A stretch of DNA of 64,000 nt, taken from contig CACENB010000002.1 of the NCBI GenBank assembly GCA_902561015.1, forward strand, positions 1-64,000, written 5' to 3'. The position numbers were made by a program, and so were the translations under genes. This document shows positions 311 through 22,200 of the stretch, piece by piece. Origin of the DNA: an uncultured Pelagibacteraceae bacterium (GTDB taxonomy: Bacteria > Pseudomonadota > Alphaproteobacteria > Pelagibacterales > Pelagibacteraceae). A model generated the notes under the pieces. That model was given only the letters and a program-made list of their open reading frames with translations. It did not search any database and was not told the origin of the DNA. Each line of letters begins with the position of its first letter. Positions within the stretch are counted from its first letter, which is position 1.

Positions 311-327
311 TGTCCATAATGGGTAAA
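311..327. promoter_or_regulatory. Putative T4P regulatory motif, copy A (TGTCCATAATGGGTAAA)
   Basis: Matches 14/17 with copy at 9361-9377 and 11/17 with copy at 22184-22200; 101 nt upstream of the pilA ATG. Confidence 0.45.
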
Positions 328-374: not shown

Positions 375-674
375 ATGTCTTATAAAGTAACAGAAGAAGG
401 AAATGTCAGCACTGTCTTTTTAAATGGAGAGATAGACATGGACGTTACCGAGAAAGCCAAAGAGGTAATTTTACCCATAGTAGAGTCAGGAAAAGAAGTT
501 CATTTAAACTTGAAAGATGTTTCCTACATGGATTCTTCGGGAATTTCAGTTTTAATTGAAAGTCATCAAAAAGCTTTGGAGCATAATACTAAGGTCATTG
601 TCAAAGAGGTAAGTAAATCTGTTTTAAAAGTAATTATGATGGCGAAACTTGAACAGATTTTAAACTTAGAATAA
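375..674 (+). CDS. STAS-domain anti-sigma factor antagonist (RsbV/SpoIIAA-like)
   Basis: VHLNLKDVSYMDSSGISVLIESHQKA is the conserved STAS phosphorylation-site region. Confidence 0.85.
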   Translation: MSYKVTEEGNVSTVFLNGEIDMDVTEKAKEVILPIVESGKEVHLNLKDVSYMDSSGISVLIESHQKALEHNTKVIVKEVSKSVLKVIMMAKLEQILNLE

Positions 675-1087
675 TGAATATAGAAGAATCAAAAGATTTT
701 CTTGTAAGTACAGCTAGTTTAAAAGAGGTAAGAACTTTCTCCAGAGGAGTATTTGAAAAAATTAATTTACCACAAGATCAAAAAGATGAACTTGTATTAG
801 CAATAGCTGAAGCAGCACAAAATATCGTTAAACATGCCTATAGAGATATTGCAGAAACATCGGATAGAATGGAGATTAAAATTTCACTTAAAGATAGTGA
901 TTTAGAGATAGGTTTTTTTGATAAAGGAAAAGCAGTAATACCAGAAAATATTCAACATAGAAAATTAGACGATATTAAACCAGGTGGTCTTGGAACTTTT
1001 TTTATAAAACAAATTATGGATGCGGCTGTTTTTAAAAAAGACCAAAAAGAGTGGGTAAACCATTTGGTGCTTACCAAAAAAATTTAA
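674..1087 (+). CDS. Anti-sigma factor serine kinase (RsbW/SpoIIAB-like HATPase)
   Basis: ELVLAIAEAAQNIVKHAY N-box and GGLGTFFIKQIMD G-box; overlaps STAS gene stop by 1 nt. Confidence 0.83.
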   Translation: MNIEESKDFLVSTASLKEVRTFSRGVFEKINLPQDQKDELVLAIAEAAQNIVKHAYRDIAETSDRMEIKISLKDSDLEIGFFDKGKAVIPENIQHRKLDDIKPGGLGTFFIKQIMDAAVFKKDQKEWVNHLVLTKKI

Positions 1088-6830: not shown

Positions 6831-9272
6831 TTAACCTTTAACATCCACTAAAACTGTAAAATTCTTTTTTATATCTGCAGAATCCCCTGCTTTACCCTTA
6901 AAATTCATTTTTCCTAATGAGGCTTGAACAACAAGCTCCTGTGCTCCAAGATTGTTTATTAATTTCAAAATATCTTGATCGGTGGCTGCTTGACCTTTTA
7001 TGACCACTTTATTTTTACCATTATATTCCACTGATGCAAATTTGATCCTTTTGGGAACACTCATAGCAACCTGTGCTAATACCCTGTAACTATTCTTTTT
7101 ATTAGATTTTAAACTTGTGCTTAATTTTAATGTGTTTGTAATTAAGCCTAACTCTTTTTTAATTTTCTTTCGTTCTAATGTTTTGGCTTTATGAGTTTTT
7201 AGAACTTTATCATAATTGACTAATTTTTTATTGTAAGATTGAATATTCCAAAACGACAAACCAAAAAGAATTAAGTATATTCCAGCTATTGAGGCAGCGA
7301 TACCTTTGAAAGCAAAACTTGAAAAAGCTTTCATTTTTTTCTCTTTTATCATTCCCTTTCTATTAGGTAATAAGTTTATATTTTTGACAGCAGTTACAAA
7401 TTTATAGTAACCAAAAACATCTAATTTTCTAAACGCTAAACCAATAACTGACGATAAATACGATCTGTTAATTAAATCTACTTTTTCTTTGTTTTGTTGA
7501 GGAATTAATAATCCATCAACTGGATCAAATAAATTAAAACCAACATTTAATAGACCCTTTCTAAAACTTGATAAGAAATCTTCGACATTCTTTAAATCTG
7601 ATACGACTTTTATGTTTCTTATTCTTTTCTCATATTTGGTCTCAAAATCTTGAACAGCTTGTTTTACTTGAGTTAAAAATCTTCTTACGAGTGCCTCTTT
7701 TTCCTCAACATCTTGTGACTCTAATAATATTTTTCTATCTTGGCCCCTTAAAAAAATGTCAGTAATTATTGGGTTATTATCATACAAAATCATCAAATAG
7801 TTTTCATCCAATCCAAATTCTAAAACAGCAGTAAGATTAACATCATCAACTTTGTTTGAAATTTGATTTATTTGGTCGACAGCAGATTTTAATGCAAAGC
7901 ACTTTACGTCAATAATTACAGGATTAAGATTACTTTGTTTAATTATTGAAGTATAATTGTTTATGTCAGCTAATTTTGAAGCAACAAACAAAATATCCAT
8001 TGTGTTAGCTTTTTCGTTTCTATTAATAACTTGATGGAAAATTGAATAATCGTCTAAATTATCAGTTAACTGAACTAAATTTTCCCAAAGTGAATTAGTT
8101 TCAATTGCTTTTTGCAATTCCTCTTCTTTCATCAACGGTGCTGTTACAACTCTTATAATCGCACTTGTGACCGGTATAGCAATTGCAGCGTTTAAAGTAG
8201 TGATTTTAGATTTTTGTAATGCAATTGTAAGTTCAGCTCCTAATTTTTCTCCATTATCTAAAACATTCGCATCATCTGGTAAATCAACTGGATGTGCATA
8301 AAATTTATCTAATACCCATTGATTTGATTTATTAGTTGATACTTGAGCTAATCTTATTTCTTTGTTTGTAATTTCAACTCCAACAATTTCCTCCCCTTTA
8401 ACTGCTGACTTTCCAATTTTAGATTTAAAAAAACTAGTAACTTTTTTCGAAAGTTCATTAGTTTTGAGTGATGGTTTTGAAACCGAACTTTTTTCTAAGA
8501 AGCTTGGCTTTTTAAATTTAATATTTTTTATATTATCTAAAAAAGCAAATTTTGATTTTTTATTTTCTTGTTCGTCCTCTGTTGATTGATTTAAAATAGG
8601 AGCGTCAATTTTAGGTTCGGTTAACGTAGTTGTTTGACTCGTTTGTTCTTTATTAATAATTTGAGTTGAAGTTTCCGGTTGAACAGATGTTTCTTCAGTT
8701 TTAACAGGTTGCTCCTGAATTTCTTTTTCTTTTTCTTTTCCTGCAACAACGTCGTCAAACCATTTTTCTAAAATTGGTATTGCTTCCTCCAAATTAGGAG
8801 TTCCTGATGATGAAATTTTTTGTTTTCCATCATGATAAAGTCTTCCAACCCAATTTTTTGATTTTAATTCACCTTTGTATTTGTCTTGTCGGATATAAAT
8901 ATGTAACCTCCCGTCTTTCTTGTGGATTACCTCATGTGAGGATCCATTATCCTCATCTTTTTTTTCATTTGAAGTCTCGGATGTTTGTTCTTGGGTGGTT
9001 TCTTGATCGTTGTTTTGACTTGATTCTAAACTTCTTTCATCATTTTGATTATCTAAAATTTCATTTTCCTCTTTTTTTTCACTAGTTGTATCTAAATTTT
9101 GTGTTTGATCATTATTTTCGTTATTATTTTGATTTGAGCCAGGGATAGGATCATTTTTTTGATTATCTACACCTTCAGGTTGATTATTTTCATCAACTTT
9201 AGATTGATTCTCACTTTCTGACTGAGACCTCTCCTCTTCAATAATTTTTTTTTCGTCGTCTTGATCGTTCAT
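6831..9272 (-). CDS. PilM-PilN fusion protein with acidic low-complexity N-terminus
   Basis: Actin-like PilM region (VVGVEITNKEIRLAQV ... AVLEFGLDENYLMILYDNNPIITDIFLRG), then PilN signature INLLPNRKG, TM and PilN periplasmic part in one ORF. ORF track starts at TTG 9278; ATG at 9272 is more likely. Confidence 0.85.
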   Translation of the reverse strand: MNDQDDEKKIIEEERSQSESENQSKVDENNQPEGVDNQKNDPIPGSNQNNNENNDQTQNLDTTSEKKEENEILDNQNDERSLESSQNNDQETTQEQTSETSNEKKDEDNGSSHEVIHKKDGRLHIYIRQDKYKGELKSKNWVGRLYHDGKQKISSSGTPNLEEAIPILEKWFDDVVAGKEKEKEIQEQPVKTEETSVQPETSTQIINKEQTSQTTTLTEPKIDAPILNQSTEDEQENKKSKFAFLDNIKNIKFKKPSFLEKSSVSKPSLKTNELSKKVTSFFKSKIGKSAVKGEEIVGVEITNKEIRLAQVSTNKSNQWVLDKFYAHPVDLPDDANVLDNGEKLGAELTIALQKSKITTLNAAIAIPVTSAIIRVVTAPLMKEEELQKAIETNSLWENLVQLTDNLDDYSIFHQVINRNEKANTMDILFVASKLADINNYTSIIKQSNLNPVIIDVKCFALKSAVDQINQISNKVDDVNLTAVLEFGLDENYLMILYDNNPIITDIFLRGQDRKILLESQDVEEKEALVRRFLTQVKQAVQDFETKYEKRIRNIKVVSDLKNVEDFLSSFRKGLLNVGFNLFDPVDGLLIPQQNKEKVDLINRSYLSSVIGLAFRKLDVFGYYKFVTAVKNINLLPNRKGMIKEKKMKAFSSFAFKGIAASIAGIYLILFGLSFWNIQSYNKKLVNYDKVLKTHKAKTLERKKIKKELGLITNTLKLSTSLKSNKKNSYRVLAQVAMSVPKRIKFASVEYNGKNKVVIKGQAATDQDILKLINNLGAQELVVQASLGKMNFKGKAGDSADIKKNFTVLVDVKG

Positions 9273-9292
9273 ACACAATTTAAAATTTTTTC

Positions 9293-9626
9293 TCTAACAC
9301 AATTTAACGAATCTCTAACACAAAATAATACTTTAGTCTAACACAAAATTATAAAATATATGTCCAAAATGAGTTAAATAGTAAAAAAGACAATAAATTA
9401 GCCATTTTTTACAAATTAAAATATTTTATAAATATTATATTTTTAATCTAGATTTTAATAAACTCTAACACAAATCATAAATATTAAATTGTGTTAGAGT
9501 ATTTCTATTTTGTGTTAGAATATTTAATTTTAATTTTATATAAAAAAAGTCAATAAAATCAACAAAAATCAAAATTGTGCTAAATTTAAACTTTTTTGTG
9601 TTAGAGTTTTAACTTTATGTGTTAGA
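9293..9626. repeat. Cluster of eight TCTAACACAA / TTGTGTTAGA elements
   Basis: TCTAACACAA at 9293-9302, 9314-9323, 9337-9346, 9464-9473; TTGTGTTAGA at 9489-9498, 9510-9519, 9596-9605 and ATGTGTTAGA at 9617-9626. Confidence 0.92.
9361..9377. promoter_or_regulatory. Putative T4P regulatory motif, copy B (TGTCCAAAATGAGTTAA)
   Basis: Shared with 311-327 and 22184-22200; 89 nt upstream of the pilMN ATG. Confidence 0.45.
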
Positions 9627-9825
9627 GTTAAATGTTTTATTAATATTACACTCAAAAATTGTAAATTTAATATTCAATTTATTAAAAAATTATCTATTCA
9701 ATTAAAAATTGAGCTTTTTTTTTAAAAAAAAATAATTTTTTTCTCTTTTTGAGCGAAAATTAGATAATAATTAAATTTCTCTCATGATTTATTTAAAAAA
9801 ATTTTTTAAAACACATTTTTTTATT

Positions 9826-10137: not shown

Positions 10138-11508
10138 TTATACTCCGTCTACAACAACAATAGTCAAATCATCTTTTTGAATACGGCCAGACTTAATTAT
10201 ATCCTCAACAATTTTATTTAATCTTTCGTGATTAGGAGTTTGATGATACTTTGTAATATAATTTTTGAAACCATCGGACTCTAACATGTTACCTTCAGGA
10301 TCTTTCATTTCTGTTATACCATCAGTGAATACATACATCGAACTCTCAGAAAATTTTATTTTTGTTTCTTTGTATTTAATCTTCGACATAATTCCTAAAG
10401 GTGGACCCGCTTCAGTATAGTTTGTAAATTTTCCATCTTTAGAATGAATTAGTGGTGGTTCATGTCCTGCGTTAGCAAGTAGTAATTCTTTTTTATTACT
10501 GTCATAAATACCGATAAGCATTGTTACAAACATTCCACGTGCAGCTGTTTCACAAATTTCAGAATTAAGTAAGTTTAATAAATCGGCAGCAGAAAAAATT
10601 GTTTTACTTAAACATCTATAAAGACTCGAAGCCTTTGACATTAAAAGAGAAGATTTAATTCCTTTACCGGATACATCTGCAACACCAAAACCAAATTTAC
10701 CATCACCTAGATCAGAAAAATTATAAAAATCTCCTGATACGACTTTTGCTGGGATATTTATTCCTGCTATAGGAAAGTTTTCTTTTTTATTTTGAGACAA
10801 CAAAGTTTTTTGTATCTCACCAACAATTTCAATTTCTTTTTGCATTCTATTCTTATCAACTAAATCTTTTGCCATCTTAGCATTGTTAATTGCTAATGCA
10901 GCTGGACCAGACAAAGTTTCTAAAAGTTTTCTATCATTCTCTTCAAAAAGTTTATTATTAGTTTTTTTGTTTAGGCAATGAATAACTCCAATACATTCAT
11001 CTGATACAATTAAAGGGGAGCATAGAACTGAATAAGTTGTAAAATTTGTTTTGTTATCTAAATCAAAATAAAATTCTGCAATTTCTCTAATATCTTTTCT
11101 AACATCACCAACTCTAATACATTTTTTCATGACTGCAGCTTTTCCCATAACTCCTTGGGTAATTGGTATTTCAAAATCCTCAAGATATGCTTGATGTTTT
11201 GAAGCAATACATTGGAACGATTGATTTTTTTTATCTATTAAAAAAATATTTGCCGCTTGTGCATTAATTCTTTTTATAATTAATTCTAATGAATTATTTA
11301 GTGTTTCTTTTAAATCAAGAGACATTGCAAACTCTTGATTCATTTTTGTTACTAGCTCTAAATCTTTACTGCTAGTGTCATCTATTTTGATCGTTTCCTT
11401 TTTTTTTACACCAAAAAACATGTCATTTATAAATTGATATTCGTTATTTTTTTGATAGTTTTGAAATTGATGGAAATCATTATTCATACGCCAAATTTCT
11501 ATCTGCAC
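10138..11508 (-). CDS. GAF-domain SpoIIE/RsbU-type PP2C serine phosphatase
   Basis: GAF domain (ANIFLIDKKNQSFQCIAS...) plus PP2C motifs VSGDFYNFSDLGDGKFGFGVADVSGKG, LLLANAGHEPPLI, YVFTDGITEMKD. Confidence 0.9.
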   Translation of the reverse strand: MQIEIWRMNNDFHQFQNYQKNNEYQFINDMFFGVKKKETIKIDDTSSKDLELVTKMNQEFAMSLDLKETLNNSLELIIKRINAQAANIFLIDKKNQSFQCIASKHQAYLEDFEIPITQGVMGKAAVMKKCIRVGDVRKDIREIAEFYFDLDNKTNFTTYSVLCSPLIVSDECIGVIHCLNKKTNNKLFEENDRKLLETLSGPAALAINNAKMAKDLVDKNRMQKEIEIVGEIQKTLLSQNKKENFPIAGINIPAKVVSGDFYNFSDLGDGKFGFGVADVSGKGIKSSLLMSKASSLYRCLSKTIFSAADLLNLLNSEICETAARGMFVTMLIGIYDSNKKELLLANAGHEPPLIHSKDGKFTNYTEAGPPLGIMSKIKYKETKIKFSESSMYVFTDGITEMKDPEGNMLESDGFKNYITKYHQTPNHERLNKIVEDIIKSGRIQKDDLTIVVVDGV

Positions 11509-20400: not shown

Positions 20401-21072
20401 TTATTGACTAACCCACTCTCCAGACGCCCCTTTTCTTTCATTCCATTTTTCAAGTTTTATATTTCCAAATCTTGACCACACAATACGATAATCGCACTGA
20501 GGACCTTTTATTTCATCTTGATCATCACAAACTCCGCCCCGCCCGGACATTTCAAATGAATTGGATCCCTGAAAAAAATTTGAAGTACTATACCATCTTC
20601 CATCTTTAGAAAAACAAACTGCTTCCTCACCATTAAAATTTGTTTCAATATTATTTAATATTTCTTGACTAACTTCAGCTCTATCAGTATCTGCGCCATC
20701 ATGGTCCCAATCTTCTCTATCTAATGAACATCTGTCAGTTTCACTTCGAAAGGTCATGTCTTGAGTAATTTTATTACCTAATGTATCGGCCGTCATTCCC
20801 CTTGATGTAACAGTTAGAGTAGTAATGCCAGTATCCTGATCAATCTCAAAATTCATATAAACTTGAGCAAAAGCGTATAAGCCCCTTTGAACTTGTGAAT
20901 TAATGTTATCAAATATGTTTACCACTCTAATAACATCTGTTTTCACTGCCCTAGATTTATTCCAGTCCATTATTTGAGGGAAAGCAAATGCCGATAGTAT
21001 GCCTACGATACATAGCACAACTATAACTTCTAAAGTTGTAAAACCTTTATTGTTCTCTACCAGCTGATGCAT
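20401..21072 (-). CDS. Minor pilin (FimT/GspH-like)
   Basis: MHQLVENNKG^FTTLEVIVVLCIVGILSAFAFPQIMDW; likely ATG at 21072 (ORF opens at 21093) overlapping the pilT 3' end. Confidence 0.78.
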   Translation of the reverse strand: MHQLVENNKGFTTLEVIVVLCIVGILSAFAFPQIMDWNKSRAVKTDVIRVVNIFDNINSQVQRGLYAFAQVYMNFEIDQDTGITTLTVTSRGMTADTLGNKITQDMTFRSETDRCSLDREDWDHDGADTDRAEVSQEILNNIETNFNGEEAVCFSKDGRWYSTSNFFQGSNSFEMSGRGGVCDDQDEIKGPQCDYRIVWSRFGNIKLEKWNERKGASGEWVSQ

Positions 21073-22060
21073 CAATTTTACCTGCTTTAACAAGTTCTTC
21101 CAATGATTTGGTCATTGTAATCATTCCTTCCTTAACGGCGGTCTGCATGATGCTTGGTATTTGGTGGATCTTAGATTCTCTAATTAAGTTTTGAATTGGT
21201 GCAGTACATTTCATTACCTCAAAGGCACCACAACGACCTTGCCCGTCTTTTGTTTTAAGAAGTCTTTGGGTTACGACCATTTTTAAAGATGTAGAAATTT
21301 GAGCTCTTATCTGCGCTTGTTGTTCTGGCGGAAATACGTCTATGATTCTGTTTATGGTACTTGGAGCACCACTTGTATGCAAAGTTCCAAAAACAAGGTG
21401 ACCTGTCTCAGCTGCAGTTAAAGCAAGTGAAACTGTTTCAAGATCTCTCATCTCTCCTACTAATATAACATCTGGATCTTCTCTCAATGCGGCTTTTAAG
21501 GCGCTTGCAAAAGATTGAGTTTGTTTTCCTACCTCTCTATGAGAGACAATACTCTTTATATCTTTATGAATAAACTCAACTGGGTCTTCAACTGTTATAA
21601 TATTTGATGTTCTTGTCTTGTTAATTTCATTCACTATGGCTGCAAGGGTTGTTGACTTACCCGAACCTGTTGGACCTGTCACCAGGACCAAACCTTTATG
21701 CATATCAATAATATCATAAAGAACAGGTGGTAGATCAAATTGATCCATTGTCGGAATTACACTCTCAACTCTTCTTAATACTGCAGCAGGTCCATGAATA
21801 GTTTTGTAAAAGTTTGCTCTAAATCTTAGTCCACTCAAAGTTACTGAGGAATCTAATTCATGAGTATCCTTAAATCTATTCATTTCAATTTCATTACAGT
21901 TTGTTGATAATAAATCTTGAAGATCCTGAGCTTTAACTACAACCTCTTGAATTTTATGAATTTCACCAGTTTGACGGTAAGCTAAAGGCCAACCACTTCT
22001 AATATGAAAATCGGAAATCTTTTTATTATTTTTGGCGAGTTCTTCTAATTTTTCAAACAT
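21047..22060 (-). CDS. pilT: Type IV pilus retraction ATPase PilT
   Basis: GPTGSGKSTTLAAIVNEIN, ITVEDPVEFIHKD, ALREDPDVILVGEMRDLETVSLALTAAETGHLVFGTLHT. Confidence 0.95.
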   Translation of the reverse strand: MFEKLEELAKNNKKISDFHIRSGWPLAYRQTGEIHKIQEVVVKAQDLQDLLSTNCNEIEMNRFKDTHELDSSVTLSGLRFRANFYKTIHGPAAVLRRVESVIPTMDQFDLPPVLYDIIDMHKGLVLVTGPTGSGKSTTLAAIVNEINKTRTSNIITVEDPVEFIHKDIKSIVSHREVGKQTQSFASALKAALREDPDVILVGEMRDLETVSLALTAAETGHLVFGTLHTSGAPSTINRIIDVFPPEQQAQIRAQISTSLKMVVTQRLLKTKDGQGRCGAFEVMKCTAPIQNLIRESKIHQIPSIMQTAVKEGMITMTKSLEELVKAGKIDASAGREQ

Positions 22061-22138: not shown

Positions 22139-22183
22139 AAGTTAGAAAATTCAAAAAATCTTATGATACAACTTCAGATAGTA

Positions 22184-22200
22184 AGGTCAAAATGGGTTAC
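22184..22200. promoter_or_regulatory. Putative T4P regulatory motif, copy C (AGGTCAAAATGGGTTAC)
   Basis: 12/17 with 9361-9377 and 11/17 with 311-327; 124 nt upstream of pilT ATG. On the minus strand it reads AACCCATTTTGACC-N16-TATCAT, resembling -35/-10. Confidence 0.4.

Follow-up and report, generated by a model that had tools for sequence, protein, structure and literature searches.

A conserved dyad upstream of type IV pilus genes in Pelagibacteraceae as the probable operator of a tandem winged-helix regulator

The window analyzed here is a 64-kb stretch from an uncultured Pelagibacteraceae (SAR11) genome assembly (834 kb in 37 contigs, 68% complete) and carries part of a type IV pilus locus. 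Three of its minus-strand genes are considered below: the 5' part of the pilin gene pilA (1-210), a pilMN gene encoding a fusion of PilM_2 and PilN (6831-9272) and pilT, encoding an ATPase of the PilT/PilU family (21047-22060). Their ATG start codons lie at 210, 9272 and 22060. Genes for a STAS anti-sigma-antagonist and an RsbW-like kinase (375-1087, plus strand) are divergent from pilA, and a partner-switching set comprising STAS protein, RsbW-like kinase and GAF-SpoIIE phosphatase is found inside the pilus locus at 375-1087 and 10138-11493.

Within the genus, type IV pilus genes form part of the accessory genome: pilMN is present in 142 of 399 genomes. In the available passages of an earlier report, type IV pilus loci of Pelagibacteraceae are noted beside an adhesin gene; these passages share with our study the family of organisms and the treatment of pilus genes as variable loci, and regulation of the pilus genes does not come up in them (PMC12636525). 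Three pilus lineages could be distinguished, together with six distant loci. The extended lineage, to which the window belongs, has a PilMN with a long N-terminal arm; in the compact lineage pilMN and pilT are divergent and PilMN has no arm; and in a third lineage the arm is present and PilMN identity is only about 48%. The partner-switching set is also present in compact-lineage loci.

A sequence-only reading of this DNA had proposed a shared 17-nucleotide motif upstream of pilA, pilMN and pilT, and the three strings are indeed present at 311-327, 9361-9377 and 22184-22200, on the strand given, 101, 89 and 124 nt 5' of the respective genes. The proposed consensus holds exactly for the pilA and pilMN copies, which have no further exact counterpart in the window or elsewhere in the assembly, but the pilT copy departs from it at no fewer than four positions. 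With three mismatches allowed, the 17-mer was seen 5 times in the window against 3.0 expected, which is chance level, and a genome-wide scan at the same tolerance returned 34 matches versus 44 for the reversed control and hence no enrichment. As a conserved unit the 17-mer was discarded: among the loci first fetched, matches with two mismatches or fewer occurred only at the closest relative's pilA. The core of the motif is instead a 13-bp imperfect dyad, GTYCA-WWW-TGRGT, first read as RCYCA-WWW-TGRGY from a side-by-side comparison of relatives' upstream regions, and the 17-mer is not kept as such. The pattern GNYCAWWWTGRGT occurs at exactly three places in the window, the three pilus copies, where 0.42 would be expected and none of 100 shuffles reached three. 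Read on the plus strand, copy A (GTCCATAATGGGT, 312-324) lies between pilA and the STAS gene, copy B (GTCCAAAATGAGT, 9362-9374) lies 5' of pilMN and copy C (GGTCAAAATGGGT, 22185-22197) lies 5' of pilT.

Scanning the assembly for the dyad revealed two sites with a 32-bp spacing upstream of a gene for a 325-amino-acid protein, located outside the window on another contig of the same genome (contig C3, 50388-51362). The protein contains two winged helix-turn-helix (wHTH) stretches matching the Pfam model HTH_24 (E = 1e-8), and no Pfam or NCBIfam model covers its whole length. An hhalign comparison shows homology between its two halves (E = 5e-11 over 146 columns), and a structure model (pLDDT 86) has the order helices, wHTH, helix two times over. 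Of the orthologue loci, 29 extend far enough upstream to be examined, and all 29 have both sites at a spacing of exactly 32 bp; the pair also precedes the genes of divergent relatives with 31-41% identity in G409, G012, G179, G061, G177, G167 and G363. The two sites flank a TTGACA-like hexamer, a -35 element (TTGACA) that immediately precedes the near site. Because every one of the 29 testable orthologue promoters has the pair with the same spacing, the regulator very probably controls its own gene through these paired sites.

We scanned the source genome itself with patterns rather than with a matrix. The pattern GNYCAWWWTGGGTY occurs three times, twice at the regulator gene and once at pilT, and its reversed control does not occur; the other good dyad matches inspected are intragenic, and the good intergenic matches found were those at the pilus genes and the regulator. 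In genome G179, the strict pattern is found only at the regulator's own promoter pair. Across the genus, the regulator has matches in 287 of 399 genomes, and its presence, which we considered as a marker of the pilus, shows no association with pilMN (142/399). The tandem-wHTH regulator is common in Pelagibacter without pili too, and some pilus-bearing genomes with incomplete assemblies have no match to it.

For a comparison independent of the pilus copies, we built a matrix from 21 distinct sites taken from regulator promoters only. Scored with this matrix, the three pilus copies rank first (pilA, 16.4), second (pilT, 15.3) and third (pilMN, 14.7) in the 64-kb window, and they keep ranks 1 to 3 when training of the matrix is restricted to genomes in which pilMN was not detected. 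Dinucleotide shuffles reached the observed score in 2 of 5000 trials for pilA, 0 of 5000 for pilMN and 3 of 5000 for pilT.

Upstream regions of relatives, which are not independent samples, were scored against their own dinucleotide shuffles with a threshold of p <= 0.05. A site was found at 20/28 pilA promoters of the extended lineage and 17/24 of the compact lineage, and at 29/33 and 22/25 pilMN promoters, respectively, leaving 12-30% of pilA and pilMN promoters without a convincing site. The compact-lineage pilT region carries a site in 19 of 26 cases, in a stretch that for the most part coincides with the pilMN region of this lineage. Few true pilT promoters were testable beyond this lineage: most rows labeled pilT in the extended and third lineages turned out to represent the paralogue pilB instead and were not counted, and G015 and G036 gave weak matches. 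Matrix matches near third-lineage pilA fall within coding sequence, at the 3' end of pilC, and were rejected, so this lineage has no site. Among control promoters (SpoIIE, pilY1 and pilD), the site was found in 0 of 64. The expectation that the motif be conserved upstream of orthologous pil genes is thus borne out for pilA and pilMN in two lineages, and in part for pilT through the region that it shares with pilMN. The suggested tie to partner switching is not supported: the SpoIIE-phosphatase promoter has no site (0/23), and only the position of copy A in the intergenic region shared by pilA and the STAS gene leaves room for it.

Taken together, we consider it very likely that the motif is the operator of the 325-residue tandem-wHTH protein, that this protein controls itself and that pilA, pilMN and pilT belong to its regulon. 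What the sequence shows directly is the sites, the way they are paired and conserved at the regulator gene, the matrix they have in common and the internal duplication of the protein; that this protein is what binds the sites is our inference. The regulator would be a fused dimer whose two unequal halves read the imperfect dyad GTYCA / TGRGT; it would regulate its own gene through two sites 32 bp, or three turns, apart; and single sites at pilA, pilMN and pilT would bring the pilus genes under the same control. Because the motif is very probably the site of one self-controlling regulator, the pilus genes would form one small regulon, and the earlier proposal of a single co-regulated pilus regulon gains support from the recurrence of this operator at pilA and pilMN in two lineages.

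Another regulator, either a paralogue of the tandem-wHTH protein or an unrelated factor, could bind the same dyad and have the regulator gene merely as one of its targets. Some genomes (G033 and G177) do carry two related proteins, and a related protein subfamily (G277, G032, G306 and G331) lacks the paired operator. However, a 32-bp pair kept at the protein's own promoter even in divergent members of the family is what autoregulation typically produces, and this assembly, though 68% complete, has one match to the protein. We therefore regard a different binder as rather unlikely and retain the tandem-wHTH protein as the candidate regulator.

Regulators of the wHTH class that control themselves and a small regulon are a known kind. 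Dimeric winged-HTH regulators of the MarR/OhrR type are autoregulated via dyads in their own promoters, and the system described here resembles them in combining a winged HTH with a dyad operator in the promoter of the regulator gene itself. Locally, the fold of the regulator matches OhrR, RovA, MexR and PcaR, among others, with no match significant overall. The system differs from the MarR/OhrR type in having two homologous halves per chain, an asymmetric dyad and a fixed 32-bp operator pair, and we rejected membership of the MarR family itself, given the two halves in one chain and MarR profiles that match only weakly and locally. In PilS/PilR-sigma54 control of pilA, too, a dedicated transcriptional regulator acts on the pilin gene, but the site and regulator family here are unrelated; the sigma54 element TGGCAC-N5-TTGCW (-24/-12) is absent from the three pilus promoters even with up to two mismatches allowed. 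In the literature searched, we found no description of the fused-dimer family, of its operator or of its pilus targets.

How the operators lie relative to promoters bears both on the nature of the dyad and on the sign of regulation. The end of the motif had been likened to a -35 element, and the dyad does overlap -35-like hexamers at two of the three genes. At pilMN, a sigma-70-like core promoter on the minus strand (9348-9377) consists of TTAACT (9377-9372), an 18-nt spacer and TATAAT (9353-9348) and overlaps copy B; at pilT, TTGACC is followed after 16 nt by TATCAT, just as claimed for copy C, in a sigma-70-like promoter that overlaps this copy (22163-22190, minus strand) and is of a kind no commoner than in shuffles. 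Among pilMN promoters the dyad's outer half overlaps a -35-like TTGACC or TTAACT with a TATAAT-like hexamer 18 nt on, and a TATAAT-like hexamer at this fixed offset is present in 52% of 23 related pilMN promoters versus a mean of 2.5%. The likeness breaks down at pilA, where the single promoter-like match in the region lies outside the dyad, and for pilA in the extended lineage no promoter could be positioned on the dyad.

Were the motif a mere promoter element, a -35 region common by chance or through a common sigma factor, the overlaps at pilMN and pilT would be accounted for. The conserved part, however, is the dyad and not the hexamer, the regulator's promoter possesses a TTGACA in addition to its two separate dyads, and the arrangement at pilA and the finding of good intergenic matches only at the pilus genes and regulator speak against it as well, making this explanation very improbable. 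The dyad looks like a protein-binding site and not simply like a -35 element. That AT-rich intergenic DNA produced the copies by coincidence, as the chance frequency of the relaxed 17-mer would allow, is scarcely credible given the shuffle counts, the top three ranks under an independently trained matrix and the recurrence of the site in relatives. Returning to the dyad as operator of the tandem-wHTH protein, we favor repression because the operators overlap the -35 element or spacer at the regulator and pilMN promoters, and we hold a repressing role to be somewhat the likelier sign.

The pilMN leader carries a second kind of repeated sequence. Eight TTGTGTTAGA repeats, seven exact and one with a single mismatch, lie in the window at 9292-9627, neighbors being mostly 21-25 bp apart, and all seven exact copies in the assembly sit at pilMN. 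Three are direct repeats on the minus strand between the pilMN -10 hexamer and the start codon (9293, 9314 and 9337, with steps of 21 and 23; 9293-9346); the others lie upstream (9464-9626), at 9464 (minus strand), 9489, 9510, 9596 (plus strand) and 9617 (plus strand, one mismatch). At 289-298 on the minus strand, just downstream of the pilA operator, a lone TTTTGTTAGA differs from the array repeat by one mismatch and echoes the pilMN layout. Pairs of TTGTGTTAGA are present in 67 of 399 genus genomes, and the examined cases adjoin pilMN of the armed type. In 76 loci examined, the array was found throughout the extended and third lineages, except in two loci cut by contig ends, and was absent from all compact and distant loci. 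One genome with an array and no pilMN match turned out to hold a truncated pilMN that carries the N-terminal domain described below. Six viral contigs carry an exact TTGTGTTAGA pair at the spacing of the pilus array.

Within the arm of PilMN lies a hyperconserved N-terminal domain of 64 residues (8748-8939, minus strand), which we propose as the reader of the array. It has 31 invariant columns in 35 sequences, is predicted to form strands and a C-terminal helix (pLDDT 88) and has no Pfam match. Fold searches gave PDB matches with E >= 0.3, a weak viral best match (E = 0.03) and an intron endonuclease (E = 0.05, TM 0.58). The DNA-binding domains of AP2 proteins and integrase arms, which are built on a beta-sheet, likewise combine strands with a C-terminal helix, as predicted here next to a repeat array, but the PilMN domain has no significant sequence or fold match and is fused to a pilus platform protein. 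A phage origin of the domain was considered and rejected: no relatives were found, only a weak PHROG match (E = 5e-4). In another family of the class, there is a weak match to the domain (E = 0.0015; G522:C9:464341-464478).

The domain perhaps reads DNA, its co-occurrence with the array resting on few evolutionary events. Under a more specific hypothesis, PilMN, the platform protein of this pilus in the inner membrane, would bear on its flexible N-terminal arm a sequence-specific DNA-binding domain that recognizes the TTGTGTTAGA array of the pilMN leader; the base of the pilus would thereby act back on its own genes or tether them. We put this forward tentatively, as a proposal slightly more likely to fail than to hold. 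No precedent for such a link between machine and promoter was found in the literature searched. The tie between the array and a domain of the platform protein suggests a direct physical link from a surface machine to its own promoter, and a candidate regulator with its operator and a short list of targets makes control of the pilus in these bacteria directly testable.
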